A DNA stretch of 64,000 nt from Frigidibacter sp. SD6-1. GTDB taxonomy: Bacteria; Pseudomonadota; Alphaproteobacteria; Rhodobacterales; Rhodobacteraceae. The stretch spans positions 1 through 64,000 of the forward strand of contig NZ_JARJNR010000005.1 of the NCBI RefSeq assembly GCF_030143255.1, given 5' to 3'. The notes beneath the pieces are model-generated. The model was not told the DNA's origin. It saw nothing but the letters and a program-made list of their open reading frames with translations, and did no database searches. Of this stretch, positions 5,850-22,132 are shown piece after piece. Numbering within the stretch: position 1 is the first letter of the stretch; each line of letters opens with the position of its first letter. The translations under genes and the position numbers were made by a program.

Positions 5850-6866
5850 TTACCGCTTCAATAGCCTCGCGAGTCCGTCCGCGAACGGCGCCCGCACGAT
5901 GCCCCGTTCGGTGATGATGCCGGTTATCAGACGCGCCGGGGTGACATCGAAGGCGGGGTTGAAGACCGGCGCATTTTCCGGAGCGCTCCGTGTGTTGCCA
6001 ATCTCGACAACCTCCGCTGCGGACCGTTCCTCAATCTCGATATCGTCGCCGGTTTGCGTCGACAGGTCGATGGTTGAGGTGGGGGCCGCGACGTAGAAGG
6101 GCACGCCGTTATCCGCCGCGGCGAGGGCAAGGTTGTAAGTGCCGATCTTGTTCGCGGTATCGCCGTTGGCCGCCACCCGGTCGCACCCGACCACCACCAT
6201 GTCCACCTTGCGGGTCCGCATCACATGCGCCGAGGCGCCATCGACGACGATCGCATGCGGCACGCCGTATTGCATCAGTTCGAAGGAAGAAAGTTTGGAC
6301 CCTTGCAGCCTTGGCCTTGTCTCGTCGAGATAGGCGAAAGTCCTGCGCCCGCTCTCATGCGCGGTGCGGATGATGCCAAGCGCGGTGCCCAGGCCGACAG
6401 TGGCGAGCGAGCCGGTATTGCAATGGTGATAGAAGGTGACCTCGCCTTCGGGAACCACCGTCATCGCATGGCGCGAAATGGCGCGGTTGACCTCGATATC
6501 CTCCGCCTCGATGGCCCGCGCCTCGGCCAGAAGTCTGTCGGCCATATTGGGCGCGGTTGCGGCTGCGGCCCAGACAGTCTTCATCCGGTCGAGTGCCCAG
6601 AAGAGGTTCACAGCCGTCGGGCGGGAGGCGCGCAGGACCCTGTCCGACACGGCAAGATCGAGACCCTTCAGGGCCGCCGTCACCATGCCGAAAGCGGCGG
6701 CCACACCGATGGCGGGTGCGCCGCGAACGGTCATATCCTCGATCGCCGCGGCAATCTCTGCGGGTGTGGCATGGTCGAGATAACGGATCTCGGTCGGCAA
6801 CGCCTTCTGGTCGATCAGGCGCAGGCAGGCATCATCGTCGATCCACTCGATGGCGCGAAAGCTCAT
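5850..6866 (-). CDS. mtnA: S-methyl-5-thioribose-1-phosphate isomerase (MtnA family)
   Basis: Converts 5-methylthioribose-1-phosphate to 5-methylthioribulose-1-phosphate; the family can also take 5-deoxyribose-1-phosphate. Length 338 aa, usual for the family. Diagnostic motifs: TVRGAPAIGVAAAFG at 46-60, HHCNTGSLAT with the catalytic Cys at 149, DETRPRLQG at 181-189, VVGCDRVAANGDTANKIGTY with the catalytic Asp at 229. Both catalytic residues are present. It is the last gene of a three-gene minus-strand operon (phosphorylase, deaminase, mtnA), six bases after the deaminase stop. No mtnB, mtnC/mtnD or mtnK gene of the classical methionine salvage pathway is nearby; instead a RuBisCO-like protein lies 3.3 kb away. 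Confidence 0.9.
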   Translation of the reverse strand: MSFRAIEWIDDDACLRLIDQKALPTEIRYLDHATPAEIAAAIEDMTVRGAPAIGVAAAFGMVTAALKGLDLAVSDRVLRASRPTAVNLFWALDRMKTVWAAAATAPNMADRLLAEARAIEAEDIEVNRAISRHAMTVVPEGEVTFYHHCNTGSLATVGLGTALGIIRTAHESGRRTFAYLDETRPRLQGSKLSSFELMQYGVPHAIVVDGASAHVMRTRKVDMVVVGCDRVAANGDTANKIGTYNLALAAADNGVPFYVAAPTSTIDLSTQTGDDIEIEERSAAEVVEIGNTRSAPENAPVFNPAFDVTPARLITGIITERGIVRAPFADGLARLLKR

Positions 6867-6872
6867 GGTTTC

Positions 6873-8198
6873 TCAGGCTTTCTCTTTTATCTTCTCCGCA
6901 AACCGGCGGGTTTCAGCGATCTCAGCCGCGATATCGGTGCAAAGCCGGTGATTGCGCACGACCGGTCTGCCCCGCGCAATGACGTCACGCACGTCGTTTC
7001 GCCCCGCCGAGTAGGCCAGCGCCGAATAGGGGTCGAAGACCGGCACCATATGCGGGGCGTCAAGGCTGATCACCGCAATGTCGGCGCGTTTGCCAGTTTC
7101 CAGCGACCCGGTCTCGGACCCGAGCCGCAAGGCCCTCGCCCCGCCGCACGTGGCCATTTCGACGAGCCTTCGCGCAGGCAGCGCCGCCGGATTGCCGGTG
7201 GCGAGCGCCTGCAGGAAACCGGCAAGCCGCATCGCCTTCCAAAGATCGAGGTCATTGCCGCTCGATGCGCCGTCCGTGCCCAGCGACAGGGGAATGCCCG
7301 CGCGGATCATGTCGGCAACCCGCGCCGTGCCCGAGGCGAGCTTGGCGTTCGACAGGGGGTTGTGGCTGATGGCCGCGCCGGTCGCGGCGATCCGCGCGAT
7401 CTCTGCATCGTCGAGATGCACGCCGTGCGCGATGAGCGGCGCGTGCTCCAGAAGGCCAGCCCGGTCGAAGACGCCGATCGGGCGGGCGCCATCGTGCTGG
7501 CTGGCCACCAGCGCCATTTCAGAGGGGCTTTCAGCGCCGTGGATATGGATGGGGCAGCCGTGACGGTCGGCCAGCGCCACCACTTCCGCCAGCTTGCCCG
7601 CATCGAGCGTGTAACAGGAATGCGGCATCGCCATAAGCTGGAGGTCGGGCGCGTCCCTATGACGGGCCAGGAAGTCGTCCGCCGCCTTTAGTCGCTTCGG
7701 CCAGGGCAGGCCGTCGATCCCGTCGAAGCCGATGAAGACCGGCCCGGTGGTCAGCGACAGGCCGATCCGCCTTGCCGCCGCAATTGTCGCGTCGGGGTGC
7801 CAGTACATGTCAGTGAAATGGGTGATGCCGCCAAGCGCCATCTCGGCCGCGCCGATCGTCGCGCCCAGCTCGACGGTTTCAGGCGTGATGAAAGCCGCCT
7901 CGGCAGCCCAGACCCGTTGCAGGAACCCGTCGAGGTCGCGGTCGTCGGCCAGCCCTCGGAACAGGGTCATCGCGGCGTGGCAATGGGTGTTGATCAGGCC
8001 GGGCATGACGATCGTGCCCTGCGCGTCGATCTCGGTCGCCGCCGATGCCCCGGCGGCTTCGACCGATGGTCCCACGGCGACGATCCGGCCATCGGTGACC
8101 GCGATGGCGCCGTCGGGATGGTCGGAGAATGTGGCGTCCATGGTCAGCACATGGCCGCCGCGAATGATCAGGTCGGCCTTTTCGGGAAATCCGGTCAT
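6873..8198 (-). CDS. mtaD: 5'-methylthioadenosine/S-adenosylhomocysteine deaminase family amidohydrolase
   Basis: Zinc amidohydrolase of the MTA/SAH/5'-deoxyadenosine deaminase group, 441 aa. Metal-binding motif NTHCHAAMTLFRGLADD at about 65-80, then HIHGAESPSE, the metal histidine in LIAHGVHLDD, SHNPLSNAKLASG and LGTDGASSGNDLD carrying the metal aspartate. C-terminal composite beta domain ends in VVRNHRL. In vivo it should remove the 6-amino group of a 5'-modified adenosine, giving the inosine analogue for the adjacent phosphorylase. ATG 8198 overlaps the phosphorylase stop codon (ATGA), so the two are translationally coupled. 8-oxoguanine or other purine deaminase activity is possible; the order of genes favours nucleoside deamination. 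Confidence 0.85.
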   Translation of the reverse strand: MTGFPEKADLIIRGGHVLTMDATFSDHPDGAIAVTDGRIVAVGPSVEAAGASAATEIDAQGTIVMPGLINTHCHAAMTLFRGLADDRDLDGFLQRVWAAEAAFITPETVELGATIGAAEMALGGITHFTDMYWHPDATIAAARRIGLSLTTGPVFIGFDGIDGLPWPKRLKAADDFLARHRDAPDLQLMAMPHSCYTLDAGKLAEVVALADRHGCPIHIHGAESPSEMALVASQHDGARPIGVFDRAGLLEHAPLIAHGVHLDDAEIARIAATGAAISHNPLSNAKLASGTARVADMIRAGIPLSLGTDGASSGNDLDLWKAMRLAGFLQALATGNPAALPARRLVEMATCGGARALRLGSETGSLETGKRADIAVISLDAPHMVPVFDPYSALAYSAGRNDVRDVIARGRPVVRNHRLCTDIAAEIAETRRFAEKIKEKA

Positions 8199-9037
8199 GT
8201 CATGTCCTTCGGCAACGCCGGGATCAGCCGTTCCATCAACGAAAGAAGCCTGGGCTGGGCGATCTTTACCGCCTCCCAAACCTCGTCTTCGTTCGTGACA
8301 TGCGCGTCCGACACGTCCGCAACCGCGATGTTCGTCACGGCCGAAAGCGCCAATACCCTCTGGCCCGCCTGCCGCGCGGCGATCACTTCGGGCACGGTCG
8401 ACATGCCGACAAGGCCGCAGCCCATCGCCGCGAAGAACCGGATCAGTGCCGGGGGCTCGAAGCTCGGCCCGACATTGTGGGCATAGACCGCCCGCTTCAG
8501 CCCGGGTTCCAGCCGCTCGGCCAGCGCCAGAAGCTCCGGGTCATAGGCCTTGTTGAGCGAGGTGAAGCGCGGCCCCGGCGCGTCGTCCTGCGGACCCCGC
8601 GTCGGGTCCATCCCGGCGGCCATGGCCAGCGACAGGTGATCCTCGATCAGCACCAGTTCACCCACAGAATACCCGGCGCCGATGCCGCCCGCCGCATTGG
8701 TAAAGACCGCCGTCCGCGCCCCGAGCGCCGCCATCACCCGTGTCGGGAACACCACCTCGGCCGGGGAGTAGCCCTCATACATATGGACGCGGCCCTGCAT
8801 GGCGACCACCGTGCGCCCGAAAAGCTGCCCCAGACACAGACGCCCCGCATGGCCCGGCGCGGTCGAGACCGGAAAGCCCGGGATATCGCCGTAAGGAATG
8901 CGCGGCCCCTCAATGCGGTCCGCAAGCGGACCGAGACCTGACCCAAGCACAAGCGCAATTTCAGGCCGGGCCGGGAAAACGCCTCGAATATGGTCGACTG
9001 CCCTGTCCAAAGCGTTCCGTTGCATCTTCGCCCGCAT
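8195..9037 (-). CDS. purine nucleoside phosphorylase / methylthioinosine phosphorylase
   Basis: Trimeric (PNP/MTAP superfamily) nucleoside phosphorylase, 280 aa. Motifs: LVLGSGLGPLAD (phosphate loop), GRVHMYEGYSP, TNAAGGIGAGYSVGEL, GPSFEPPALIR carrying the purine-binding Glu, GMSTVPEVIAARQAG and AVTNIAVAD with the Asn typical of 6-oxopurine enzymes. The GMSTVPE and Glu/Asn pair favour a PNP or methylthioinosine phosphorylase rather than an adenosine-specific MTA phosphorylase, which fits the adjacent deaminase. Product would be hypoxanthine and a (5-modified) ribose-1-phosphate for MtnA. First gene of the operon; ATG 9037 or 9025 are both possible. Its 103-base upstream region is shared with the SorC-type regulator. 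Confidence 0.85.
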   Translation of the reverse strand: MRAKMQRNALDRAVDHIRGVFPARPEIALVLGSGLGPLADRIEGPRIPYGDIPGFPVSTAPGHAGRLCLGQLFGRTVVAMQGRVHMYEGYSPAEVVFPTRVMAALGARTAVFTNAAGGIGAGYSVGELVLIEDHLSLAMAAGMDPTRGPQDDAPGPRFTSLNKAYDPELLALAERLEPGLKRAVYAHNVGPSFEPPALIRFFAAMGCGLVGMSTVPEVIAARQAGQRVLALSAVTNIAVADVSDAHVTNEDEVWEAVKIAQPRLLSLMERLIPALPKDMT

Positions 9038-9052
9038 TTGTGACTAATGTTA

Positions 9053-9083: not shown

Positions 9084-9140
9084 GCACATTGATGTTGTCC
9101 CGCATCGCCGACATAACGGAACAAACAGGCGAGGTTGTCC

Positions 9141-10094
9141 ATGCGTGCACCCCAGGAACATGTCATCCATAAAGCGGCATGGTTCTATCATATCCAGGGC
9201 ATGCGGCAGGAGGACATTGCCGAAGCGCTAGGGCTGTCCCGCGCGACCGTCATCAATTACCTCAAGCGCGCCCGCGATATCGGTGCGGTGACGATCCGCG
9301 TTCCGGCTGGTTTGTTCCGGGATGACGTGCTCGCACGGCGGCTGGAAGACGGGCTTGGCCTCAAGATGGTCTGGGTCGTCCCGGACGGAAGCGATGGGCC
9401 CGAGGTGAATTTTTCCCAGGCCGCCGGCATGGTCCTTCTCGACCTCGTCCAGCCCGACAGCCTGATGGGGCTGGCCTGGGGCGAAACCGTGTTCGCCATG
9501 GTCGATGCCCTGCCGATGACCGAAGTCCCCGGCCTGTCGATCGTCCAGATGTGCGGCAACCTCGGCACCTCGTTCCAGTACCGGCCCGACTATTGCACGC
9601 TTGAAATGGCGCGCCGCCTTTGGGCCTTTGGCGAGAACCTCTATGCGCCTCTGGTGCTGTCCTCGGAGGAGCTTGCAACCGCGATCAGGCAGGAAGATAC
9701 GGTCAGGCATCAGCTGGAACGGCTTCGCGACTGCGATCTGGCCCTGTTTTCGGTCGGAAGCTGCGGACCCGAAAGCCACGTCGTGAAAAGCGGCGCGGTG
9801 TCGCCCGAAGAACTCTTGCTGCTGATGTCGCGAGGCGCCGTCGCGCAGGTCAATGCCCGCATGATCGGCGCTGACGGCGCTGAAATCGACTGTTCGTACA
9901 ATCGTCGGCTCGTGGCGATGGAGCTGGACGATTTCCGCCGGATCGAGAAACGGCTTTGCCTTGTTTCGGCTAGAGACAAGGTGCCTGCACTGAAAGCGGC
10001 GATTGCCGGGGGTCATGTCAGCCATCTGGTCGTGACCACTTCGGTCGCGGCCGATCTCGGCCGCGACCTCATGGACCCTGATCAGGCGAGCTGA
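9141..10094 (+). CDS. SorC/DeoR-type sugar-binding transcriptional regulator
   Basis: 317 aa regulator with an N-terminal helix-turn-helix (QEDIAEALGLSRATVINYLK, about 20-40) and the C-terminal SorC sugar-phosphate-binding domain (MGLAWGETVFAMVDAL, MCGNLGTSFQYRPD, LALFSVGSCGPES). Such proteins normally bind a phosphorylated sugar and release or engage DNA accordingly. I chose ATG 9141, six bases after GAGG; the TTG at 9135 abuts the Shine-Dalgarno and is unlikely. It is divergent from the phosphorylase-deaminase-mtnA operon and convergent with the RuBisCO-like gene, so its effector may be one of the pentose phosphates of that route. That link is inference. Confidence 0.85.
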   Translation: MRAPQEHVIHKAAWFYHIQGMRQEDIAEALGLSRATVINYLKRARDIGAVTIRVPAGLFRDDVLARRLEDGLGLKMVWVVPDGSDGPEVNFSQAAGMVLLDLVQPDSLMGLAWGETVFAMVDALPMTEVPGLSIVQMCGNLGTSFQYRPDYCTLEMARRLWAFGENLYAPLVLSSEELATAIRQEDTVRHQLERLRDCDLALFSVGSCGPESHVVKSGAVSPEELLLLMSRGAVAQVNARMIGADGAEIDCSYNRRLVAMELDDFRRIEKRLCLVSARDKVPALKAAIAGGHVSHLVVTTSVAADLGRDLMDPDQAS

Positions 10095-10167
10095 TGGCCC
10101 GCAACCTTCGGCATGACTGCGGCGCAGATCGCGAAAACTGCGGTGCTGTCGGGCGGCATGGCGTTCT

Positions 10168-11307
10168 TCAGGCGCCGGTATCAAGGGCGGCGCGCATGTC
10201 GCGGATGGCGTCGCCGATCCTGTCGCCATAGCGCAGGAGCGAGCCGCCGAGGAGGTAGACGCAATCGGGCCCGTAAAGCCGCATCATGTCGGGCAAACGG
10301 TCCATGCTCATCCCGCCGCCGGGGCTGGGCAGGATCGGGCGGCCGGGGCCATTCCCGTCACGGCAATCCGCGACGATCCCGGCACATTCGGCTTCGGAAA
10401 AACCGAAGCGGCCTCCGTGATTGGGAAAGACGGAGATATCGGCCCCGGCGATCCGCATCATCGTGCCAAACATCATCCCGTGGCTGTAACCGGTATCGGG
10501 CGACAACACATAGGGACCAAGATGCGCCGGGTGGGCCATGATCGGCAGGCCGAAGCCTTCGTCCTGCGCAAGCCGGTTCATCGTGTCGAAGCCAAGGATG
10601 CCGGGGATGATCAGGACCCCGTCGGCGCCGGCCTCCTTGGCGAAGAACGCGTCCTCCCGCACCCGGTCGCCGTGGCCGAGAATGGAGGGAAAATAGAGCG
10701 CGCGCGTCGTGTCGCCCCTGGCCTGGCGCTCGGCATTGGCGCGCGCCACCGCGTCGGCGCAGGCCGGGATACGGTCGCGGAAAGGGGCGGCGGGCTGGTT
10801 GGCAAGGCCGTGATCCTCTTTCACGATATCCGCGCCTGCGCGCGCCGTTGCATGGCAGAGCCGGGCGAAATGCGCCGTGTCAGAGCCCTGCGGCTTGATC
10901 ACCGGGCAGACGAAACCGCCCGACTGCCGCCCGGTCAGGGCCCGGATGCCCGACGCGCCGAACCGCGCACCGGGAAAGCGGCGCTCCATCTCCGCCCCCG
11001 GCTCGATCCCCACCACCTTGATGCCCTTCTGGATCGAGGAATTGCCGAAGATCACGTTGATATATTGTGTCAGCTCATTCCCGACCGCGTCAGACGAATA
11101 GCTGATCCGCGCAAGCCAGGTGGCGCCATCGGGCTCTGCCTCAAGCCCGGTCACACGTCCAAGGATCTCATCCTCGACATAGCCGGGGGAAACGACGTCG
11201 CGCGGGACCTCTACGGTCTGTTCAAGAGCGATGCCCTCCGCGCGCGCCCGGGCGTCTTCGCGGGAGCGGGCGAAGAGCCGGTAGGTGACTGTGAAGCGCG
11301 CTCCCAT
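10168..11307 (-). CDS. RuBisCO-like protein (form IV, non-carboxylating)
   Basis: Large-subunit-family protein of 379 aa, shorter than true RuBisCO. N-terminal alpha/beta domain to about 125, then the TIM barrel. Equivalents of active-site positions: CPVIKPQ keeps the first lysine (K138) but has Gln at 140 for the second; IVKEDHG keeps the carbamylated lysine (K163) and Asp165 but has His166 for Glu; MAHPAH keeps His259 but has Pro for Arg; FPNHGGRFGF has Arg300 for the loop-6 lysine; SPGGGMS and YLLGGSLL are the phosphate loops. It cannot be an ordinary carboxylase. The IKP/DHG/FPN-GGRF pattern resembles the OiaX-like type IV branch. ATG 11307 overlaps the transketolase stop (TGATG). Role: isomerase, transcarboxylase or decarboxylase on a sugar phosphate; undetermined. 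Confidence 0.85.
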   Translation of the reverse strand: MGARFTVTYRLFARSREDARARAEGIALEQTVEVPRDVVSPGYVEDEILGRVTGLEAEPDGATWLARISYSSDAVGNELTQYINVIFGNSSIQKGIKVVGIEPGAEMERRFPGARFGASGIRALTGRQSGGFVCPVIKPQGSDTAHFARLCHATARAGADIVKEDHGLANQPAAPFRDRIPACADAVARANAERQARGDTTRALYFPSILGHGDRVREDAFFAKEAGADGVLIIPGILGFDTMNRLAQDEGFGLPIMAHPAHLGPYVLSPDTGYSHGMMFGTMMRIAGADISVFPNHGGRFGFSEAECAGIVADCRDGNGPGRPILPSPGGGMSMDRLPDMMRLYGPDCVYLLGGSLLRYGDRIGDAIRDMRAALDTGA

Positions 11308-12311
11308 CAAAGCGCCTCGGCCTTGACGAGGGAATGGACATCCTCCACGCGGGCGGCGTCTAGATGCTCTTCGGCAATTCCGAAATCCTGCCCCACAAGC
11401 CCCTCGATCCCCCGCACCAGCGCCAAAGCGTCAAGGTCGTAGTAGCGCATCAGATAGGGGCGGGAACCGCCATGGGCGTAGGTGTCCTTCAGCCCCAGCC
11501 GGATCAGGCGCTTTCCCACCCCGGCATCGGCCATCGTCTCGGCGACCAGGCTGCCGATGCCGCCTTCGGTCACATGGTTTTCCAGTGTCACGACGCCGTG
11601 GCGGACCGACCCGATGTGATCGAGAAGCTGGGCCGCGTCGAACGGCTTGATCGTGTGCAGGTGCAGATGGCGGATCGAAAGACCCGCGCGCGACAGCGCC
11701 ACACGGGCACGCAAGGCCTCTTCGGTGGTGATGCCGGACGTCACGACAAGGATGTCGCTGCCTTCCGACAGGACCCGCATCTCGCCCACCCGGATCGGCG
11801 TGTCGAACAGCCGCGGCACCGAGCCGCGCAGGATGCGGCACCAGACCGGGCCGTCGATGCTGTCGGCGGCCTCGCAGATGCTTTCGACCTCGGTCGCGTC
11901 GCCGGTTTCAAGGATCGACATATTGGGGATCGAGCGCATCACCGCGATATCCTCGATGGCCTGATGGGTCATGCCGCCGGGCGTCGTGATGCCGGGCAGA
12001 AAGCCCATCAGGCGCACCTTGCGGCGCGGATAGGCGACCGAGGCCATGAGCTGGTCATAGGGCCTGCGATACATGAAGACGCCAAACGTGTGAATGAAGG
12101 GCCTGAACCCCGCCAGCGCCAGCCCGCCCGCGAAACTCATCATGTTCTGCTCGGCCATGCCCATCGACAGGAACTGATCGGGGTGCCGGTCGCGAAACCC
12201 GTCCACCTCGCAGGACGAGGTCAGGTCAGCCGACAGGCAGAGGATATCGGGGTTGCCCGCCGCATAGGCTTCGAACGCGCGGGCGTAGGGCCGGTTTACC
12301 ATTTCAACCAT
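11307..12311 (-). CDS. transketolase, C-terminal (pyrimidine-binding) subunit
   Basis: Second half of a split transketolase, 334 aa. N-terminal Pyr domain with SADLTSSCEVDGFRDRHP and the conserved cofactor-activating glutamate in GMAEQNMMSFAGGLAL (E54), PGITTPGGMTHQAIEDIA in the middle, and the C-terminal transketolase domain from about 190 (SDILVVTSGI, VTLENHVTEGGIGSLVAE). Works with the N-terminal subunit encoded 12 bases upstream to transfer a two-carbon ketol unit with thiamine diphosphate. Overlaps the RuBisCO-like gene by one base, indicating a shared pathway. Similar two-subunit enzymes include apulose-4-phosphate transketolase AptAB; the substrate here is unknown. Confidence 0.85.
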   Translation of the reverse strand: MVEMVNRPYARAFEAYAAGNPDILCLSADLTSSCEVDGFRDRHPDQFLSMGMAEQNMMSFAGGLALAGFRPFIHTFGVFMYRRPYDQLMASVAYPRRKVRLMGFLPGITTPGGMTHQAIEDIAVMRSIPNMSILETGDATEVESICEAADSIDGPVWCRILRGSVPRLFDTPIRVGEMRVLSEGSDILVVTSGITTEEALRARVALSRAGLSIRHLHLHTIKPFDAAQLLDHIGSVRHGVVTLENHVTEGGIGSLVAETMADAGVGKRLIRLGLKDTYAHGGSRPYLMRYYDLDALALVRGIEGLVGQDFGIAEEHLDAARVEDVHSLVKAEAL

Positions 12312-12323
12312 GCTCAGACCCTC

Positions 12324-13253
12324 TCAGTGCCGGTCGTCGATCGGATCGACGCCAAGCTCGGCGGCGATGGACAGGTTCATGCGGGCTCGTTCCTCCTCGG
12401 ACTTGAACCGCACATAATGCAGGCGCGGGAACCGTTCCTGTAGGGCGCTCATCGCATGGAAGGGCGAGGTGCGGGCGAGGATGATCAGCGGGCGGCCTTC
12501 ATGCGGTTCGCGTACCGCATCGCGCATCGCGGTCAGGTCGTGGCCGTCGATCTCGGCGCAGGCGGCACCGAAGCAGCGGAACTTGGCGGCGATATCGCCG
12601 ACCTCCATCACCGAGGACATTGCGCCATCGCATTGCTGATCGTTGACGTCCATGATCGCGAGAAGATTGTCGATCCCGTGATGAACGGCGGCCTGAACCG
12701 CCTCCCAGGTCTGGCCTTCCTGCACCTCGCCGTCGGACATGAAAACCCAGGTCCGCCCCGGCTCGGCCCGGCGCTTGCGGCCCCAGGCCAGCCCCGCGCC
12801 GGTCGAAAGCCCGATGCCAAGCGTGCCGTTATGCACCTCCATGCCCGGGCTGTGTTCCGCCCCGATCATCTCGACCGACGAGCCGTCCTGATTGAACATC
12901 TCCAGCCCCTCGGGCGCCATACGGCCAACCTCGATCAGGGTCGCATAGGCGACCAGAGCATAATGGGCAGGGGCAATGAACAACCGGTCGAACTCCGGAG
13001 CCGCGGGGCCGTTATAGCCAGCCCCGGTGTGGTAATCGGAGTTGGACGCCGACGGCACACCGGCGAAGGGCCTGGGGATCATCGGCAAGGTCGGCGCACC
13101 AAGCTTCAGTTCCTCGTTATAGAGCCAGGCCAGCTGCTCGGCCGCCGAGCAGGCCTGTGAAAGATAACCGCCATTGTTGCGGATCGTATGTTCGAAGACC
13201 CGGCGCCGGATCCCCAGCGCCACGTCCTCGGTCGTTCGGGCGTTCGTCAGCAA
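12324..13253 (-). CDS. transketolase, N-terminal (TPP-binding) subunit
   Basis: First half of the split transketolase, about 309 aa. The diphosphate-binding motif is FMSDGEVQEGQTWEA (about 171-185) followed by VNDQQCDG; canonical enzymes have GDGE where this has SDGE. The N-terminal substrate loop reads NNGGYLSQACSAAE instead of GHxGG, so the usual catalytic histidine of that loop is replaced. HTGAGYNG and APAHYALVAY follow. Start: no ATG near the N-terminus; TTG 13253 is preceded by GGGAGG with 7-base spacing and is my choice. TTG 13289 would add 12 residues without a good ribosome-binding site. First gene of TK-N, TK-C, RuBisCO-like protein. Substrate not deducible. Confidence 0.82.
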   Translation of the reverse strand: MLTNARTTEDVALGIRRRVFEHTIRNNGGYLSQACSAAEQLAWLYNEELKLGAPTLPMIPRPFAGVPSASNSDYHTGAGYNGPAAPEFDRLFIAPAHYALVAYATLIEVGRMAPEGLEMFNQDGSSVEMIGAEHSPGMEVHNGTLGIGLSTGAGLAWGRKRRAEPGRTWVFMSDGEVQEGQTWEAVQAAVHHGIDNLLAIMDVNDQQCDGAMSSVMEVGDIAAKFRCFGAACAEIDGHDLTAMRDAVREPHEGRPLIILARTSPFHAMSALQERFPRLHYVRFKSEEERARMNLSIAAELGVDPIDDRH

Positions 13254-13302
13254 ACGATGTCCTCCCTGGTCATCTATCAGGATTGTCAAACTCTACCGGG
13301 GT

Positions 13303-13968: not shown

Positions 13969-15036
<1,068 letters not shown>

Positions 15037-15052
15037 CTGGGGTCTCCGATGA

Positions 15053-17209
15053 TCAGGCTTCGACACGATCCGCCCGGCGCAGGCGGCGTTTGCCGATGAG
15101 AAGTTGAAGGATGAGGATTGCGGCGAGCATCGTCAGGATCAGCACCGCCGAATAGGCGATGGCAAAGCCGAATTCGCCGTTTTCGACGCGGCCGACGATG
15201 AAGGATGTCGCCATGTTGTGCCGCGCCGAGACAAGGAAGATGACGGCCGAAACCGAGGTGATGGCGCGGACAAAACTGTAGGTCAGCGCGGCCAGGATCG
15301 CGGGGCCCAGAAGCGGCGCGATGACCCGGCGGGCGGTGGTGAAGCTGTTCGCGCCCAGCATGAGCGAGGCCTCGTCGAGGCTGCGATCCAGCTGCGACAT
15401 GGCGGCGATGCCGCCCCGCACGCCGACCGGCATGTTGCGGAAGACGAAGACGAGGATGAGGATGACCGAGGTTCCCGTCAGCTCGATCGGCGGGAAGTTG
15501 AAGGCCATGACATAGGCGACGCCGATCACCGTGCCGGGGATCGCGAAAGAGAGCATGGTCGAGAACTCAAACGCCTCTTTGCCCGCGAATTTCTGGCGCA
15601 CGAGAAGATAGGCCGTGGCAAGGCCGACGAATGCCGTCAGCGGGGCCGAAATGCCGGCGATGGTCAGCGTGGTGAAATAGCTGTCCCAGGCCGAGCCGGT
15701 AAAGCGGACGCCGTTGGCGAACGAGACCGAAAAGGCGCGGATGTAATGCTCCAGCGTGAAAGAATGGTCATAGCCCCAGAGCTTCACGAAGGACCCGAAG
15801 ACGATCATCGAATAGATCGCGGCGGTGAAGGCGGCCCAGGGCAGCGCGGTCAGGTAGCAGGCCCAGCGGAGCGCCGGGTTGAGCGCGGCATGGCGCCCGG
15901 AATCCGCCTTGCCGGTGACGGTCGCGTAGGACTTCTTGCCGACCCAGCGGCGCTGGATCAGGAAGGCGCCAAGCGTCATGACCAGAAGTGCGATCGACAG
16001 GATGGCAGCTTTGGCAGGGTCGGCGACCGCGCCGACGATGGCAAAATAAATCTCGGTCGACAGCACGTTGAAATTGCCGCCCAGCACCAGCGGGTTGCCG
16101 AAATCGGCAAGGCTTTCGATGAAGCCAAGAAGGAAGGCATTGGCCAGCCCCGGCCGCATCAATGGCAGCGAGACATAGCGGAAGGTCTGCCAGCGGTCTG
16201 CGTCGAGCGTCTGGCTCGCCTCCTCCATCGAGGGGCTGACGCCTTCGACCACGCCGATCAGGACGAGAAAGGCGATGGGGGTGAAGGACAGCATCTGCGC
16301 GAGGTAGATGCCGCCGAAGCCGTAAAGCCAGCGGGTCTTTTCCCAGCCAAAGGCGTCGGCGAAGAATTCGGTGACCGTGCCCGCGCGACCGAAGAGAAGG
16401 ATCAGGGCAAGGCCGATGACGAAGGGCGGCGTGATGATCGGGATGATGGTCAGGACCCGCAAGAGCGGCTTGGCCCGGAACCCGGTCCGGGTGAAGATCA
16501 GCGCGAAGGCAAGGCCGAGCGCGGTCGTCCCCGCCCCGGTCATCACAGCCAGGATCAGCGAATTGATGGCCGGGCCGCATTCGGCGCCGGTCAGGCAGCC
16601 AAGCCCCCAGAGGTCGGCAGAAAAGAAACGGCCGAAGAATTCCGAGATGCCATACCCCGCGCCGCCTTTCATCTCGAAGGCGCGGATCAGGACATGGGCG
16701 ACGGGGTAGAATACGAAGGTCGCGACCAGTGCCACGATCAGGCCGATCAGGCCGGTCACGAACGCGTCGCCCCGCCCCCGGCCAAGGCCGGAAATACCGG
16801 TGGTCAGGATCATGAGGAGCCCGAGCGCGGTGACGAAAGCCCCGGCCCCCATGCCGGGCTGACCCTCGCCCGCGATCCAGCCGAACCGTGCAGCCGTACC
16901 GGGGATCAGGAGCGCCTCGGCAATCAAAAATCCGAGCCCCGCCGCCGCCGCGATGATGAGCCCGCGTGCCATGGCTGTCTGCCCATGCACAAGCGCAAGC
17001 ACCAGCGCGGCGGCGGCGAAGGCCGGAAGCGGACCGGACAGCCACCATTTACCATGGAGAACGACCTGCAAAAGGGCGGGAGCAGCCCCCGTACCGGTCA
17101 TTTCGTTCATCCAGCCGAGGCTGAAAACCCCGCCCGACACCATATACCAGGGCAGGAGCGCATAGCCCGCAAGCCCGATCAGGAGCCAGAGCCCCGCCGT
17201 CCGCTTCAT
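15053..17209 (-). CDS. afuB: AfuB-type fused ABC transporter permease
   Basis: 718 aa permease in which two six-helix halves are fused in one chain; each half carries an EAA loop (SMEEASQTLDADRWQTF at about 330 and SLDEASLMLGANSFTTA at about 640). An additional N-terminal block of four or five membrane helices (1-160) precedes the first half. This architecture is that of FbpB/AfuB proteins, so no partner permease is needed. Start ATG 17209, 65 bases after the binding-protein gene. Located in the inner membrane; transported compound presumably a small anionic sugar phosphate by analogy with AfuA. Confidence 0.88.
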   Translation of the reverse strand: MKRTAGLWLLIGLAGYALLPWYMVSGGVFSLGWMNEMTGTGAAPALLQVVLHGKWWLSGPLPAFAAAALVLALVHGQTAMARGLIIAAAAGLGFLIAEALLIPGTAARFGWIAGEGQPGMGAGAFVTALGLLMILTTGISGLGRGRGDAFVTGLIGLIVALVATFVFYPVAHVLIRAFEMKGGAGYGISEFFGRFFSADLWGLGCLTGAECGPAINSLILAVMTGAGTTALGLAFALIFTRTGFRAKPLLRVLTIIPIITPPFVIGLALILLFGRAGTVTEFFADAFGWEKTRWLYGFGGIYLAQMLSFTPIAFLVLIGVVEGVSPSMEEASQTLDADRWQTFRYVSLPLMRPGLANAFLLGFIESLADFGNPLVLGGNFNVLSTEIYFAIVGAVADPAKAAILSIALLVMTLGAFLIQRRWVGKKSYATVTGKADSGRHAALNPALRWACYLTALPWAAFTAAIYSMIVFGSFVKLWGYDHSFTLEHYIRAFSVSFANGVRFTGSAWDSYFTTLTIAGISAPLTAFVGLATAYLLVRQKFAGKEAFEFSTMLSFAIPGTVIGVAYVMAFNFPPIELTGTSVILILVFVFRNMPVGVRGGIAAMSQLDRSLDEASLMLGANSFTTARRVIAPLLGPAILAALTYSFVRAITSVSAVIFLVSARHNMATSFIVGRVENGEFGFAIAYSAVLILTMLAAILILQLLIGKRRLRRADRVEA

Positions 17210-17274
17210 CGTTCGCTATCCTTGATTGTCCCGCACCGGGAAAGGCGGGCCGCCGATGCGACCCGCTTCCGCGC

Positions 17275-18303
17275 TTACTCTTCGACCGCCCCGCCAGCGC
17301 CCTTCACCTCGGCTTCCCAGCGCGCCAGAAGCCGCTCGCGGGTGTCCGATGCGCCATAGGTGGCGAAATCGTAGTCGATCAGCTTGATCGAGGAGAGGTC
17401 GGGCGAATCCGGGTCAAGCGACGCGCCGGAATTCGAGGGGACATTGTAGACGCCGACCTGAAGACCGGCCTGCTGCGCCTCGGCAGTAAGGACGAAATCG
17501 ACCCATTTCTTCGCGGCCTCGGGGTTCTTGGCCCCCTTGATCACGGAAACACCACCAACCTCGTAACCGGTCCCCTCGCAGGGGGCGACGATCTCCAGCG
17601 GGAAACCCGCCTTCCGCAGGTTCACCATGTCATGCATGAAACCGATGGAAATCGTGGTCTCGCCGCGCGCCGCCGCCTTGGACGGGGCTGAACCCGACTT
17701 GGTGTACTGGTTCACATTGGCCCCGATCTCGGCCAGAAGCTTGAAAGCCTCATCCTCGCCGAAAAGCTGGGTGAGGGTCGCGAGTTCGGTATAGGCCGTG
17801 CCCGATGAATTCGGATTGGCGACCTGAATCTCGCCCTTGTAGGCGGGATCGGCCAGATCCTTCCAGCAGGCCGGAGCCTTCAGGCCCTTTTCGGCGAGAA
17901 TGTCGGCGTTATAGGCAATCCCCAGCGCCCCGGCATGGATGCCGATGGTCTTGCCGCCGGAGATCTCGGCGATGTTCACCGCCCAGGGCAAAAGCGCCGA
18001 CGTGTCGGCACCCGACGCCTCGGTCAGATCCTCAGCCGCAGCGATCAGATGCGGATCGCCCGTGCCTCCCCACCAGACGTCGATCTTTGGATTGCCCGCC
18101 TCTGCACGCACCTGCGCCAGTGTTTCACCCGTCGATTTGCGGACCATGGCGACGTCGATACCGGTCGCCGCCTCGAAATTCGAGGCCATCAGATCGCACC
18201 AATCCTGTTCGTTCGAACAGACGACGTTCAGTTCATCGGCAAAGGCGGGGGCGGCCAGAACGGCCAGCACAGCCGCAAGGCTGATCGAAGAGAATTTGTT
18301 CAC
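17275..18303 (-). CDS. afuA: AfuA-type periplasmic substrate-binding protein
   Basis: 342 aa with a signal peptide (LAAVLAVLAAPAFADE, cleavage after AFA, about residue 22). The mature protein matches the AfuA pattern as I remember it: ATGIDVAMVRKSTGE, DVWWGGTGDPHL, LGIAYNADILAEKGLKAP, IQVANPNSSGTAYTELATL, NVNQYTKSGSAP, GFMHDMV. AfuA of Actinobacillus binds hexose phosphates and sedoheptulose phosphate rather than iron, so a phosphorylated sugar is the best guess. The start is GTG 18303 with AAGGGAGGA five bases upstream; the ATG at 18305 is out of frame. First gene of the minus-strand importer operon and divergent from a two-component system. Confidence 0.87.
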   Translation of the reverse strand: MNKFSSISLAAVLAVLAAPAFADELNVVCSNEQDWCDLMASNFEAATGIDVAMVRKSTGETLAQVRAEAGNPKIDVWWGGTGDPHLIAAAEDLTEASGADTSALLPWAVNIAEISGGKTIGIHAGALGIAYNADILAEKGLKAPACWKDLADPAYKGEIQVANPNSSGTAYTELATLTQLFGEDEAFKLLAEIGANVNQYTKSGSAPSKAAARGETTISIGFMHDMVNLRKAGFPLEIVAPCEGTGYEVGGVSVIKGAKNPEAAKKWVDFVLTAEAQQAGLQVGVYNVPSNSGASLDPDSPDLSSIKLIDYDFATYGASDTRERLLARWEAEVKGAGGAVEE

Positions 18304-18552
18304 ATGTTCCTCCCTTGGGTTCGCACCGCAAGTCTCCTCTGGACGGGTCTGCGGCCGGTGCGGTCATGATGCGAAACAGACGCTCCGGTAGGCGAGCAGG
18401 GCTTGGTAAACAGTGCTAACACGAGGCGGCGAAACGGTTAACAATGTTACAGGCTGCGCGTTTGCCACTTAACAAAGCAAACCAAAAACCGAAGGTAGGG
18501 TCGGCAAAACCGTGCCATAGTCCTGTAAAACCGGACAAGACCCGTAACGCCG
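18304..18552. promoter_or_regulatory. divergent promoter region between importer and two-component system
   Basis: 249 bases between afuA and the response-regulator gene. It holds a short dyad TAACA-A-TGTTA (18439-18449) and nearby related TAAACA/TTAACA words (around 18408, 18440 and 18471), spaced irregularly, which could serve as OmpR-type binding repeats. The importer is probably controlled from here by the divergent regulator. No terminator or RNA element was seen. Confidence 0.5.
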
Positions 18553-19278
18553 ATGGCCGAGACCGACAGCCAGACCCCTGTGATTGCCGTCATCGACGAT
18601 GACGCCAACATGCGTGAAACCGTTGCGGCGCTTCTGACCGAGAACGGGTTCGAGGCGCACGCGTTCGAAGGGATCGCCGCCTTCGGGGCACATGGGGCGG
18701 ATGGGCTGGACATGGCGCTGATCGACCTCAAGCTTAACGGCGAAAGCGGTCTGTCGCTGGCGATGGACCTGCGCGCGAGGGGAAATCTGCCGATCATCAT
18801 GCTGACCGGGCGGGGCGACGAGATCGACAAGATCATCGGGTTGGAGGTCGGCGCGGACGATTATGTGATGAAGCCCTTCAACCCGCGCGAACTGATTGCC
18901 CGTATCCGCGCCGTACTTCGCCGCACTGGCCGCATGACGGCACCGAGGCCTGTTTCAGACGCCGCCATCCGTTTCGGAGATTTGCGCCTTGACCTGCAGA
19001 AACGCGAGCTCCTTGACGCTGAAGGCGATGAGATCGCGCTGACAAACGGCGAATACCGCCTTCTGGAATACTTCCTGCGCCATCCAGACCGGGTGATCCC
19101 GCGCACAGAGCTTCTGCAAGAGTTGGGCAGCGATCTGTCGAGCTATGTCGACCGCACGATCGACGTGCTGATCCTGAGGCTCAGGCGCAAGATCGAACCT
19201 GTTCCGTCAAAACCCGTCCATCTGCAGACGCGGCGCGGGCAGGGCTATCTTTTCGCCCTTGGTTCGGAGGAAGGATGA
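18553..19278 (+). CDS. OmpR-family response regulator
   Basis: 241 aa regulator. Receiver domain 9-125 with the acidic pair IDDDANMRE, phosphoacceptor Asp58 in ALIDLKLNGE, Thr in IIMLTGRGDE and Lys in YVMKPFNPREL. Winged-helix domain from about 135 (FGDLRLDLQKREL, LTNGEYRLLEYFLRHPDRV, YVDRTIDVLILRLRRKIE, RRGQGYLF). ATG 18553 has no clear Shine-Dalgarno, so the initiation site is slightly uncertain. It overlaps the histidine kinase by ATGA. Divergent from afuABC, so its target is most likely that operon, possibly with the transketolase and RuBisCO-like genes downstream. Confidence 0.9.
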   Translation: MAETDSQTPVIAVIDDDANMRETVAALLTENGFEAHAFEGIAAFGAHGADGLDMALIDLKLNGESGLSLAMDLRARGNLPIIMLTGRGDEIDKIIGLEVGADDYVMKPFNPRELIARIRAVLRRTGRMTAPRPVSDAAIRFGDLRLDLQKRELLDAEGDEIALTNGEYRLLEYFLRHPDRVIPRTELLQELGSDLSSYVDRTIDVLILRLRRKIEPVPSKPVHLQTRRGQGYLFALGSEEG

Positions 19279-21770
19279 GGGCCGCGGCGCCTCGTTGGAG
19301 CGTGCGTGGCAGGCTCTGGACTGCGCTTGCTGCACTGGCGGCATCGACCCTGATCGTCGGCATTGTCGCGATGATCGCGCTGGCGCGGGCCGAGGCGCGG
19401 CTTGAGGCCCTGCACCGCGATACGCTGACCGAAGTCGCCAATGCGCTGGAGCTGTCGCGTCGTTCCGCGGGTCTGGCAGCCTCGGCCCCTTATCTTCTCA
19501 ATCTCCCCTCGCTGATCCGTGTCCGGCAAGAGGCCGAGGCGATCAGCCGGACGATTGCGGAAATACGCAGTATGTCGGGCGGAAAAGGCGACGTATCGGG
19601 CGCGGTTGCCGCAATGGACATCGCTGTCGGGGATCTCGTGGCGGCGACCGGCCGGATGACCGAAGCGCGCGAACAGGGCCTCAGGCAGGTGGCTGCACTG
19701 TCGCTGCTGGAGCGCAGGGTGGCCCTTGCGACCGCCGATCCAGGAGCGCCGCTTGCGGTCCGGCGCGGCTGGCTGCAACTGCAAAGGCTTGCAAGTGCCG
19801 TCATCGGTGCGGGCCGGGCCGAAAGCCTGATCGCCGCCGGCGAGTTCCAGCGCGAATACCATCAGCAGATGGCCGCAGTGAAGCCGGATCTGCTTGATCC
19901 GGCCCAGCAAGACGCACTCAGTCTTGTCATCAGCCTCGTATCCGGCCCCGAGGGACTGTTCACGACAAGACGCCTCGAGCTTAGCGAGCGTCTCGCCGGG
20001 CAGAATGCGCTTTTCCGCATCCGTCGCGCAACTGAAGCGCTGAGCGAAACAAGTGCCGATGTCGTCGCGGCGGCAGAGGCAAAGCTGTCGCAGGAACGAA
20101 ACGCCACGTCGTCGACAATTGCCGTGGCGCGTCTTGCCGTGATCGGCGCGGCCCTGACCAGCGTCGCGATTGCCGTGGTGGCGGCGCTTTTCGTTTCAGG
20201 CTACGTCACGGGCAATCTTGCCGCGATTTCAGATGCGATGATGCGGCTCGCCTCTGGGGACCGTACCAGCCGTCTGCCGCGCGGAGAGGGGTCCGGCGAC
20301 GAAATCGGCAAGCTCTTCCACGCCTTCCGCACCTTCCGCGCCAATGCCCTGCGGCTCGACCGCTCCAACCGTCAGCTTGCCCGGAAGAATGCGCTTTTCG
20401 AACGGGTGTTCGGCAATATCAGCGACGGCGTCGCCATCATGGGCGAGGACGGCCGGTTGCTGGTCGCCAACCCGAGCCTGCCGCGCGTGCTGCGCATTGA
20501 TCCCGCCATCCTTTCCCGGCGCCCGGTGATTGACGAACTGCGTGTGGCCTCGTCCCTCGAAGGGGCGGGCGATGGCGATTGGCAAAGCGCCGACGGATTC
20601 GTCGTCGAGGCGCGGCGCAACTCGCTTCCCGCTGGCGGATCGGTCTGGCTTTTCGCGGATGCGACCGAAAAGCGCCGGATCGATGAGCGCCTCGCCCAGA
20701 TCCAGCGCATCGAGAGCCTTGGCAAGGTAACAGGCGAGGTGGCGCATGATTTCGGCAATATCCTGTCGACCATAGCCGGGTCGCTCCAGCTCTGGAAACC
20801 GGACCCGAGTGGCGAAGGCGATGCTGTTCGCAACCGGATCCGCGATGCCGTGGACATTGGCATCGCGCTGACCCAGCGGCTTCTGGTCTTCGCCCGCAAG
20901 CAGCATCTGGAGCCCGAGATCGTCGAGCTGAACGGTTTGATGGAAGGGCTGACAGATCTGATCGGCTTTGCCATGCGCGACGAGGTGACGCTGACGGTTC
21001 ACCCGGCCAAGGCACCGCTTCACGTCCGCGTCGACCCCGGGCAGCTGGAAAGTGCCATCCTGAACCTCTGCCTGAATGCCAACCAGGCGATCCAAGGTCA
21101 GGGGCAGGTCTGCGTCAGCCTGAGCGAAACCGACAGCGCTTGCGCCCGGATCACTGTGCGGGATGACGGACCAGGCATGGCGCCCGAGGTTCTGCGCCAT
21201 GCGATGGAGCCGTTCTACACGGCGCGTGCCGATGGCACCGGCACCGGGCTCGGCCTGTCGACGGTCTACGGTTTCATCCGCCAGTCGGACGGAGATATCC
21301 AGATCACCTCGGCGCCGGGCGAAGGCACCTCGGTCGCGCTCTATCTGCCGATCGTTGCGGGGGAGGCGCCCGTGCCGATGGTGGGGAGGAACCGGCTGTG
21401 TCTTGCCGTCGACGACGAACCTGCCGCACTGAAGGCAACAGCGCGCGCGATGACGTCGCTTGGCTGCCAGACCGAAATGGCGTCGAGCTACCGTCAAGCG
21501 CTCGACCTGCTCGAGGCTGGCGAAACACCGGACCTTCTTGTCACCGACCTCAATCTCGAGGCGGGACACTCCGGTTGGGAACTGGCCGAAACGTTCCTCA
21601 AGCGCTCGTCCAGTGCGCAGGCCATCGTCGTTTCCGGGCATGTGCCCCCGGATCATCCGCTGCTCCACCGGTTTGGTGCGCGGATCGCGATGGTACCCAA
21701 ACCGGCGACCGCGGCTGCTCTGGCACCAATCGTTGCGACCCGCATACATGAACAGGAGACCCATGAATGA
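19275..21770 (+). CDS. hybrid sensor histidine kinase with C-terminal receiver
   Basis: 831 aa. Membrane segment at about 12-33, a long periplasmic helical sensor (34-285) resembling TorS-type sensors, second membrane segment around 285-310, HAMP (310-365), a PAS-like region starting ARKNALFERVFGNISDG (about 370-475), then the kinase core: H-box GEVAHDFGNILS with His491, N-box NLCLNANQAIQ, G boxes VRDDGPGMAPE and GTGLGLSTVYGFI. A receiver domain follows (LAVDDEPAALKA, DLLVTDLNLE, IVVSGH). ATG overlaps the regulator stop (ATGA) and its own stop overlaps the cupin start (ATGA). It probably senses a periplasmic ligand, perhaps the sugar phosphate or ligand-loaded AfuA-like protein. Confidence 0.88.
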   Translation: MRAAAPRWSVRGRLWTALAALAASTLIVGIVAMIALARAEARLEALHRDTLTEVANALELSRRSAGLAASAPYLLNLPSLIRVRQEAEAISRTIAEIRSMSGGKGDVSGAVAAMDIAVGDLVAATGRMTEAREQGLRQVAALSLLERRVALATADPGAPLAVRRGWLQLQRLASAVIGAGRAESLIAAGEFQREYHQQMAAVKPDLLDPAQQDALSLVISLVSGPEGLFTTRRLELSERLAGQNALFRIRRATEALSETSADVVAAAEAKLSQERNATSSTIAVARLAVIGAALTSVAIAVVAALFVSGYVTGNLAAISDAMMRLASGDRTSRLPRGEGSGDEIGKLFHAFRTFRANALRLDRSNRQLARKNALFERVFGNISDGVAIMGEDGRLLVANPSLPRVLRIDPAILSRRPVIDELRVASSLEGAGDGDWQSADGFVVEARRNSLPAGGSVWLFADATEKRRIDERLAQIQRIESLGKVTGEVAHDFGNILSTIAGSLQLWKPDPSGEGDAVRNRIRDAVDIGIALTQRLLVFARKQHLEPEIVELNGLMEGLTDLIGFAMRDEVTLTVHPAKAPLHVRVDPGQLESAILNLCLNANQAIQGQGQVCVSLSETDSACARITVRDDGPGMAPEVLRHAMEPFYTARADGTGTGLGLSTVYGFIRQSDGDIQITSAPGEGTSVALYLPIVAGEAPVPMVGRNRLCLAVDDEPAALKATARAMTSLGCQTEMASSYRQALDLLEAGETPDLLVTDLNLEAGHSGWELAETFLKRSSSAQAIVVSGHVPPDHPLLHRFGARIAMVPKPATAAALAPIVATRIHEQETHE

Positions 21771-22132
21771 CCGAGATAACCTACCGCGCCGGACAGGCCG
21801 AAATCCGCCCGTGGGGCCGCTGGCAGGTGGTGCAGACCGATCCCGGCTATGTCGTGAAGCGGATCGACGTCAATCCGGGCGCGCGCCTGTCGCTGCAGTA
21901 TCACAACCACCGGTCCGAGCATTGGGTCGTGGTCGCAGGCCGTGGCAAGGTCACCATCGGCGGGGACACGATCCGGGTGGATCGCGGCAGCCACATCTAC
22001 ATTCCGAAAGAGATCAAACACAGAATCGCCAATGACGGCGACGCGCCACTGGTCTTCGTCGAAGTGCAATTCGGCACCGAACTCCGCGAGGACGATATCG
22101 TCCGGATCGATGACGATTTCGCGCGGAAGTAG
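21767..22132 (+). CDS. small cupin, mannose-6-phosphate-isomerase type II-like
   Basis: 121 aa single cupin domain like the C-terminal domain of type II phosphomannose isomerases: RPWGRWQVV, GYVVKRIDVNPGARLSLQYH, HNHRSEHWVVVAGRGKV with the metal ligands His-X-His-X4-His, IYIPKEIKHRI. It is translationally coupled to the kinase (ATGA). A stand-alone cupin of this type could isomerise or modify a sugar phosphate, or act as a ligand-sensing partner of the kinase. In Rhodospirillum a cupin (CupB) completes the MTA-isoprenoid shunt after a RuBisCO-like protein; whether this cupin plays such a role is speculation, as it is shorter and of another cupin subgroup. Confidence 0.8.
   Translation: MTEITYRAGQAEIRPWGRWQVVQTDPGYVVKRIDVNPGARLSLQYHNHRSEHWVVVAGRGKVTIGGDTIRVDRGSHIYIPKEIKHRIANDGDAPLVFVEVQFGTELREDDIVRIDDDFARK

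Follow-up and report, generated by a model that had tools for sequence, protein, structure and literature searches.

A RuBisCO-like protein and a dedicated split transketolase linked to MtnA point to an undescribed breakdown of methylthio- or deoxyribose

The first 64,000 nucleotides of contig NZ_JARJNR010000005.1 of Frigidibacter sp. SD6-1 (GCF_030143255.1; a 3.9 Mb genome in 38 contigs), the stretch analyzed here and called the window, encode a RuBisCO-like protein (RLP) and the two subunits of a split transketolase (TK) next to the methylthioribose gene mtnA. The mtnA gene (5850–6866, minus strand) belongs to the 5-methylthioribose-1-phosphate isomerase family (TIGR00512, 408 bits against a cut-off of 279). 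It is preceded by an amidohydrolase gene (6873–8198, minus strand; PF01979) of the kind that comprises methylthioadenosine (MTA), S-adenosylhomocysteine (SAH) and 5'-deoxyadenosine deaminases, and by a PNPH-type purine nucleoside phosphorylase (PNP) gene (8195–9037, minus strand; NF006054, 284 bits, cut-off 218). The three genes form one minus-strand operon with gaps of −4 and 6 nt. The specificity of the deaminase is not settled, its top NCBIfam match (NF006549, 358 bits) lying under the cut-off of 540; the PNP reaches only 52 bits with the MTA phosphorylase (MTAP) model and is thus not of the MTAP type. The RLP gene (10168–11310, minus strand; PF00016) codes for a predicted 5-X-ribulose-1-phosphate 1,3-isomerase, where X stands for the substituent at C5. 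It closes a second minus-strand operon with the C-terminal subunit TK-C (11307–12311, minus strand; PF02779 and PF02780; motif GFLPGITTPGGMTHQ) and the N-terminal subunit TK-N (12324–13289, minus strand; PF00456; motif EMIGAEHSPGMEV; start codon uncertain). The original prediction had all three of these genes overlapping, which is so for RLP and TK-C (4 nt) but not for TK-C and TK-N, which are spaced by 12 nt. It also had the PNP operon adjoin the RLP; the two are neighbors, but a plus-strand gene for a SorC/DeoR-type sugar-binding regulator (9135–10094; PF04198, 2.5e-46), divergent from PNP by 97 nt, separates them. Genome-wide, the window's mtnA is the single match to the IF-2B/MtnA family (PF01008) and the RLP the single RuBisCO-family match. 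Transket_pyr has seven matches including TK-C, the other six being counted without sorting into transketolase, DXS and 2-oxoacid dehydrogenases.

Twenty aligned RLPs were scanned against one genome each of 84,980 species, and of the 392 stretches that matched, 321 encode a relative. Our neighborhood census takes the best 80 of these 321 relatives with up to 10 kb per side (at least 8 kb on both sides at 53 loci, less than 8 kb on one side at 27). Neighbors were called by local tblastn with proteins of the window and of annotated plasmids, at score cut-offs set by hand. TK-C was found near the RLP at 75 of the 80 loci and TK-N at 72, MtnA at 63 and the 5-methylthioribose (MTR) kinase MtnK at 58. 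A sugar ATP-binding cassette (ABC) importer was found at 59, a SorC-type regulator at 57 and a bifunctional fusion of an aldolase and a short-chain dehydrogenase/reductase (SDR) at 37. PNP (8), the deaminase (7), an AfuC-like ATPase (5) and a nucleoside-type BMP binding protein (3) are rarer. TK-C lies directly upstream of the RLP, on the same strand and within 60 nt, at 74 of the 75 loci that have it. Among the 53 well-covered loci, TK-C is local in 50 and MtnA in 48. The five without local MtnA (L074, L083, L086, L112, L129) have it elsewhere in the same genome, and the three without local TK-C (L113, L115, L135) have the same TK-C elsewhere at 88–89% identity, which puts RLP, TK and MtnA in every one of the 53 genomes. 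Over the whole census, 17 loci lack a local MtnA. A match exists in 14 of those genomes, 13 of them over the model cut-off and the 14th a 30-residue piece at a contig end, and three metagenome genomes have MtnA in no part; MtnA is thus present in 77 of 80 genomes if every match is counted, the contig-end piece included. For the five loci without local TK-C, the rest of the genome supplies it in four cases; the exception is a metagenome genome (L073). When open reading frames (ORFs) of the 80 loci were clustered, 26 of the 29 unlabelled families mostly overlapped labelled genes, and three did not, namely the RbsD/FucU, aldehyde dehydrogenase and permease-subunit families taken up below.

The same association appears in a sample of 390 genomes of the order, where RLP occurs in 26 (E up to 1e-40), TK-C in 31 (1e-100) and MtnA in 100 (1e-40). 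All 26 RLP genomes, which are spread over 19 of 139 genera, have both TK-C and MtnA (Fisher tests uncorrected for kinship: RLP–MtnA 3e-17, RLP–TK-C 7e-36). RLP, TK and MtnA are genomically linked. The original prediction tied the RLP–TK pair to nucleoside salvage through MtnA, PNP and the deaminase; the link to MtnA holds because RLP–TK pairs mostly occur with it, whereas PNP and the deaminase accompany few of them.

The usual feeder is MtnK plus MtnA with a sugar importer, and the PNP–deaminase–MtnA arrangement of the window is a minority form. By feeder set, 55 loci have MtnK and MtnA, five PNP, deaminase and MtnA, two all four genes, one PNP and MtnA and one MtnK only, with none seen at 16. 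Plasmids of Agrobacterium MA01, Shinella and Mariluticola carry mtnK–mtnA–TKN–TKC–RLP adjoining a sugar ABC importer, with a SorC-type regulator and the aldolase/SDR fusion; two MtnK proteins (L029, 490 bits; L063, 465 bits) score well over the MTR kinase cut-off of 275. A Ponticoccus plasmid has a nucleoside-type (BMP) ABC importer followed by PNP–deaminase–MtnA–molybdenum oxidoreductase–TKN–TKC–RLP. A cluster of this Ponticoccus type, with 97–99% protein identity for several genes, also lies on a contig filed as the actinobacterium Enemella evansiae (L081), and is either contamination or a very recent transfer. The PNP–deaminase form recurs in the nearest relatives of the window (L061 and L062; RLP 80% and 74%). 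In these two loci a 780-residue PDH-E1/aceE-like enzyme dependent on thiamine diphosphate (ThDP) is encoded directly after the RLP (L061 11156–13498, L062 8308–10647), a neighbor that the window RLP lacks; we rejected an assignment of this gene as an S/N-oxide reductase, given its PDH-E1 likeness. An RbsD/FucU-family mutarotase-type gene stands by the importer and TK-N at 23 of the 80 loci (e.g. L064 7512–7955, PF05025, 1.7e-31), and a fucose-mutarotase homolog is mentioned in one 5-deoxyribose cluster in a figure legend (PMC6079011). Aldehyde dehydrogenases occur at six loci and a DctM permease subunit of a tripartite ATP-independent periplasmic (TRAP) transporter at five. The SorC regulator of the window shares 28% identity (308 aligned positions) with E. 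coli YjhU, which PMC12632272 describes as renamed MtnR once shown to repress the mtnK–mtnA–ald2 operon.

Clade and motifs place the RLP in a wider group, one member of which is described as acting on the MtnA product. Its top match in the PDB is 3qfw (216 bits; the next reaches 124), which we take to be RLP1 of Rhodopseudomonas palustris. It scores 165 and 128 bits with the MtnW models PRK09549 (cut-off 409) and TIGR03332 (cut-off 514), and far under cut-off with the NCBIfam models of true RuBisCO. OiaX, which the original prediction had brought in from apiose catabolism, proved no close relative (48.8 bits, cut-off 700). With the 3qfw stretch as query, 17 of 385 genomes of the class matched, the window genome included, and 13 of the 16 other loci hold a cupin 53–59% identical to one adjoining a Terrarubrum RLP. 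The window RLP and the cupin-linked RLPs have KPQG, KxDHGL, FPNxGGRF, P[GA]GGM and GGxLL in common, whereas OiaX and MtnW differ; this comparison covers 12 of the 16 RLPs from the cupin-type search, and the tree takes in all 16. In this tree of 106 rows, one group (96/91) joins the RLPs linked to a TK with those of the cupin type, and MtnW, OiaX, an acid-sugar-type RLP and the RLP of Vibrio nigripulchritudo fall outside it. The window and its 80 census relatives make up one branch (100/100), while three rhizobial plasmid RLPs and, likewise, two weakly similar members of the class (L235, L236) branch separately. The acid-sugar-type RLP, from Pseudosulfitobacter (L242 4752–7248), adjoins a four-carbon acid sugar kinase and a TRAP importer. 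By clade and active-site signature, the window RLP belongs to the 5-methylthioribulose-1-phosphate 1,3-isomerase (DeepYkr) type, and the corresponding activity is predicted for it. The R. palustris RLP1 of this type is described as converting 5-methylthioribulose-1-phosphate to 1-methylthioxylulose-5-phosphate and 1-methylthioribulose-5-phosphate at 3:1 (PMC5893883).

Both TK subunits find their best match in the split transketolase of Carboxydothermus hydrogenoformans (TK-C in PDB 6yaj), with which they share the two-subunit build and the ThDP-binding motifs. The ThDP/Mg motifs SDGE...DVND, AEQN, APAHYAL and THQ are retained, as are the equivalents of H66, H473 and E411 of the E. coli transketolase (EcTK). 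The donor side of the pocket is altered. Where other transketolases have a GHPxxxxxPGVE stretch, TK-N has EMIGAEHSPGME, and alignments to TktA, 6yak and control split TKs place no His at EcTK H100, the residue that contacts the donor C1 hydroxyl, in 73 of 73 TK-N sequences. GFLPG[IV]TTPGG replaces a THxGxxxGEDG stretch in 75 of the 76 sequences reaching it, and the H26 equivalent is Tyr. These features are close to invariant, the TK-C motif occurring in 75 of the 76 sequences that reach it and the TK-N motif in all 73; at 69 of the 80 loci a six-frame translation matches both exactly, and 14 of 14 further loci tested give slightly looser matches. Compared with 6yaj/6yak, the window TK has thus lost the donor C1-OH His, has the EMIGAEHSPGME and GFxPGxTTPGG motifs, and has an extra segment at about residues 65–95 of TK-N. 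H100 is present in TktA and in five of seven control split TKs (L144–L148) hand-picked from 510 plasmid records. Work on EcTK lists H66, H100, G114 and H473 as donor contacts, notes Phe in place of H100 in deoxyxylulose-5-phosphate synthase (DXPS), and describes more use of pyruvate upon H100F or H100L (PMC7661550). The H100L and D469T changes combined with stabilizing ones are described as allowing pyruvate to be used with propanal (PMC10787763), and use of C1-deoxy donors is ascribed to H100L/F changes (PMC7661550, PMC7696235, PMC10787763). Like the engineered EcTK H100L/D469T and TKgst H102L/H474S, the window-type TK has lost the donor His, and also the D469 of EcTK. Its change is natural and invariant, however, and it retains the H473/H474 equivalent. 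Judged by alignment, the donor pocket would suit 1-deoxy- or 1-methylthio-xylulose-5-phosphate, or another donor that lacks the C1 hydroxyl.

Known steps after MtnA are MtnB in the universal pathway or a FucA-like aldolase in the dihydroxyacetone phosphate (DHAP) shunt, both of PF00596, or a cupin. The window genome has a single PF00596 match, of the PRK07490 type, and the PF00596 search found neither an MtnB-type dehydratase nor a FucA-like (Ald2/DrdA) aldolase there. A tblastn query that detects the shunt-type cupin at 13 of 16 cupin-type loci found it at none of the 80 loci as fetched. Our preferred interpretation, to which we give a probability of roughly 0.6, is that MtnA, the RLP and the split TK act together as a single module for the catabolism of 5-substituted riboses (5-methylthioribose, 5-deoxyribose or both) arising from S-adenosylmethionine by-products. 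In the window, the deaminase would turn 5'-X-adenosine into 5'-X-inosine, the PNP would split this into hypoxanthine and 5-X-ribose-1-phosphate, and MtnA would isomerize the latter to 5-X-ribulose-1-phosphate, with X being SCH3 or H. By a 1,3-isomerization, a carbonyl shift reportedly carried out by the RLP enzymes of Rhodospirillum rubrum and R. palustris, the RLP would then yield 1-X-D-xylulose-5-phosphate, a transketolase-type donor. Cleavage between C2 and C3 by the TK would give glyceraldehyde-3-phosphate and a ThDP-bound two-carbon unit carrying X, which could be let go as X-acetaldehyde, handed to an acceptor, or lost with X. With X = SCH3 the two-carbon product would be 2-methylthioacetaldehyde, or methanethiol and an acetyl unit if X is expelled. 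2-Methylthioacetaldehyde is given as the aldehyde of the DHAP shunt too (PMC10986504). That the RLP product passes to the TK, as the original prediction had it, is supported but not proved by the operon structure, by the TK standing in the cupin's place and by the altered donor pocket. More specifically, and rather improbably, the TK could act as a thio-phosphoketolase, expelling methanethiolate from the ThDP-bound unit to leave acetyl-ThDP and then acetyl phosphate or acetate.

Several observations weigh against the proposed module. The census takes in the best 80 of the 321 RLP relatives and not the weaker ones, and the tree does not resolve the order of branches between TK-linked and cupin-linked RLPs. 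Two of the seven control split TKs (L142, L143), which are not RLP-linked, also lack H26 and H100, and D469 is absent in several controls. The phosphate-contact residue H461 of EcTK and, by eye, R358 are not retained, so that a phosphorylated leaving aldehyde is less well supported. The TK occurs without RLP or MtnA in five of the 31 TK genomes of the order sample (G021, G045, G049, G258, G347), and in V. nigripulchritudo, where the TK is accompanied by an FGGY kinase and a divergent RLP, no MtnA lies within 8 kb of them. The shunt-type cupin was not found in the window genome, but the search of this genome had no positive control. Finally, besides the 37 loci with the aldolase/SDR fusion, seven have a stand-alone class II aldolase-family ORF, that of L063 being FucA-like; with aldolase-family genes in the cluster, the MtnA product may have another outlet in these relatives. 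Of the two control TKs without H26 and H100, both adjoin transporter genes, of TRAP/ABC or major facilitator superfamily (MFS) type (L142 4045–5918, L143 3061–4918).

The first alternative is that X is simply OH, so that MtnA would convert ribose-1-phosphate to ribulose-1-phosphate, the RLP would make xylulose-5-phosphate, and an ordinary transketolase would follow. The window PNP is of the inosine/guanosine type and not MTAP, the product of the RLP would be one that transketolases ordinarily take as donor, and the RbsD/FucU-family gene of 23 loci could serve ribose. The MtnK of 58 loci, with the two scored proteins well over the MTR kinase cut-off, speaks against it, as do the missing donor C1-OH His, a loss that should hurt the use of plain ketoses, and the six other Transket_pyr matches of the window genome; we regard this reading as improbable. 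Just as improbable, in our estimation, are two separate outlets in one locus, with MtnK, MtnA and the aldolase serving 5-deoxy sugars by the DHAP shunt and RLP–TK serving another imported deoxyketose. The aldolase-family genes and the MtnA-free RLP of V. nigripulchritudo favor such a division. Against it, every RLP genome of the order sample (26 of 26) also has MtnA, the window genome's single PF00596 gene is of neither FucA nor MtnB type, and an RLP of the wider clade is described as acting on the MtnA product (PMC5893883). The DHAP shunt and 5-deoxyribose disposal (MtnK or MtnP, MtnA, Ald2/DrdA) do resemble the proposed module in the MtnK–MtnA feeder, the importer, the DeoR/SorC-type regulator and a split into two and three carbons, and many relatives' loci include a class II aldolase-family gene. 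They differ in that no FucA-type aldolase was found in the window genome and in that the RLP and a ThDP enzyme would yield glyceraldehyde-3-phosphate, not DHAP. In aldolase-bearing relatives, RLP–TK and a DHAP-type outlet may coexist.

Two further alternatives are considerably less probable. In the first, the TK is a mere neighbor of the known MTA-isoprenoid shunt (R. rubrum and R. palustris RLP1), whose methylsulfurylase makes 1-deoxyxylulose-5-phosphate. In its favor, both systems have MtnA and, after it, an RLP from one broad clade with 1-methylthioxylulose-5-phosphate as the predicted product. No cupin methylsulfurylase was found here, at the 80 loci as fetched or, by a search that had no positive control, in the window genome, and a dedicated split TK stands in its place, abutting the RLP at 74 of 75 loci and present in every RLP genome of the order sample; the module is, moreover, mostly MtnK-fed with an importer. 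The second, about equally remote, has the TK building a deoxy- or methylthio-ketose, for instance a 7-deoxysedoheptulose-like one, instead of degrading a sugar. A cyanobacterial transketolase is described as making 7-deoxysedoheptulose from 5-deoxyribose (PMC8102628). The sugar importers and sugar-binding regulators of most loci point to catabolism instead, and no biosynthetic enzyme is seen among the ORF families in at least five of the 80 loci. An apiose/isoapionate-type pathway with OiaX and the apulose-4-phosphate transketolase AptAB can be dismissed: the families are the same and an RLP adjoins a split transketolase in both, but this likeness is superficial, the RLP clade and active-site motifs being other than those of OiaX, one AptAB-annotated pair retaining the canonical GHPD motif, and MtnA having no known place in the apiose route.

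Clusters in which the TK stands away from the RLP suggest a further source of substrate. A plasmid of Paracoccus seriniphilus (L141 6441–15005) has the same TK with no RLP or MtnA nearby. Its neighbors are a Zn-dehydrogenase and three proteins that score under the model cut-offs: a bisC-family S/N-oxide reductase (845 bits against a cut-off of 1018), a XylB-like FGGY kinase (290 against 380) and a class II aldolase-family protein nearest to L-ribulose-5-phosphate 4-epimerase (245 against 251); L141 proteins alone were scored against models, and the other such loci were assigned by homology to this set. In the order sample, each of the five TK-only genomes (L216–L220) has the reductase next to the TK. 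Three of them (L217–L219) clearly have the kinase, dehydrogenase and epimerase-like protein as well, and this set recurs at L214, a TK locus of a genome with RLP elsewhere; at two other loci of that sort (L213, L215) no member of the set, reductase included, was found. A sulfatase gene lies near the TK in L141, L217 and L218. A TK without RLP beside a kinase and AraD-like set would belong to a second, unexplained sugar pathway. On a plasmid of V. nigripulchritudo (L241 5944–10563), TKN–TKC–RLP–FGGY kinase form an operon in which the TK motifs are nearly identical to those of the window module and the RLP is divergent. Since a kinase and an AraD-type epimerase should yield a compound of the xylulose-5-phosphate type, one class of TK substrate may be supplied by two feeders, and this second feeder, named from homology, may reach the product class predicted for the RLP; such clusters could equally yield plain xylulose-5-phosphate, as the reading with X = OH would have it. 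The bisC-type reductase also stands near RLP and TK in four of the 80 loci (L069; L070, at a contig edge; L081; L121) and on the Ponticoccus plasmid (L028), and near a TK away from RLP at L141, L214 and L216–L220. The window has none, and its genome gives weak matches only (110 bits at best against a cut-off of 1018). Build-up of 2-methylsulfinylethanol is described for E. coli with the DHAP shunt (PMC10986504), for which reason an S-oxide reductase near some TKs would suit X = SCH3.

The remaining neighbors of the window operons probably form a unit of their own (13969–22132). AfuC (13969–15066) is the last gene of the operon upstream of TK-N, at a distance of 679 nt, and has AfuB (15053–17209) and AfuA (17275–18303) before it on the same minus strand. 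Divergent from this AfuABC-type importer, on the plus strand, are genes for a response regulator (18553–19278), a histidine kinase (19275–21770) and a cupin of the mannose-6-phosphate-isomerase type (21767–22132; PF01050, 4e-36). All genes named in the original prediction are present at the places it gave; the type of the cupin is a correction to it. The top PDB match of the AfuA protein is the 4r72 sequence (entries 4r72–4r75; E 1.9e-85), followed by 8x1a and then the pyridoxal-phosphate binder 6wce; we take 4r72 to be AfuA, which makes this a fair name by homology. By tblastn, none of the 80 RLP loci has AfuA, AfuB, the window cupin, the window kinase or the window response regulator, and we rejected AfuABC, the two-component pair and this cupin as parts of the module. 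The idea that the importer supplies a phosphorylated sugar, and that this cupin takes part, is therefore unsupported. On the other side of mtnA, 160–4743 looks, from gene content, like a separate phosphonate-uptake locus, with a phosphonate-type ABC importer (PhnC over cut-off, PhnD-like under cut-off and, by eye, two PhnE-like permeases), PsrA (TIGR03405 over cut-off), which is an iron-containing alcohol dehydrogenase associated with phosphonate genes, and, by eye, a LysR-type regulator.

Overall, the retention of MtnA, RLP and a split TK together in many marine and soil bacteria points to an undescribed breakdown of methylthio- or deoxyribose, and the route would be a further branch of 5'-deoxynucleoside salvage. 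Within the open-licence literature, surveyed by titles, abstract starts and term counts with subscription papers outside, no description of RLP, transketolase and MtnA together was found. The pathway would assign a function to a whole RLP branch, with relatives encoded by 321 stretches of one genome collection, though some of the 241 outside the best 80 may be cupin-linked instead. If it is correct, a natural enzyme of the transketolase family bears the donor-site change that was engineered for C1-deoxy donors. Should the thio-phosphoketolase variant hold, MTA would be turned into glyceraldehyde-3-phosphate, an acetyl unit and methanethiol with no cupin, aldolase or oxygen, a new methionine-salvage route built on two enzymes from carbon fixation and the pentose phosphate pathway. 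The proposed module is relevant to the use of dissolved methylthioadenosine and 5-deoxyribose by marine bacteria, and perhaps to the formation of methanethiol.

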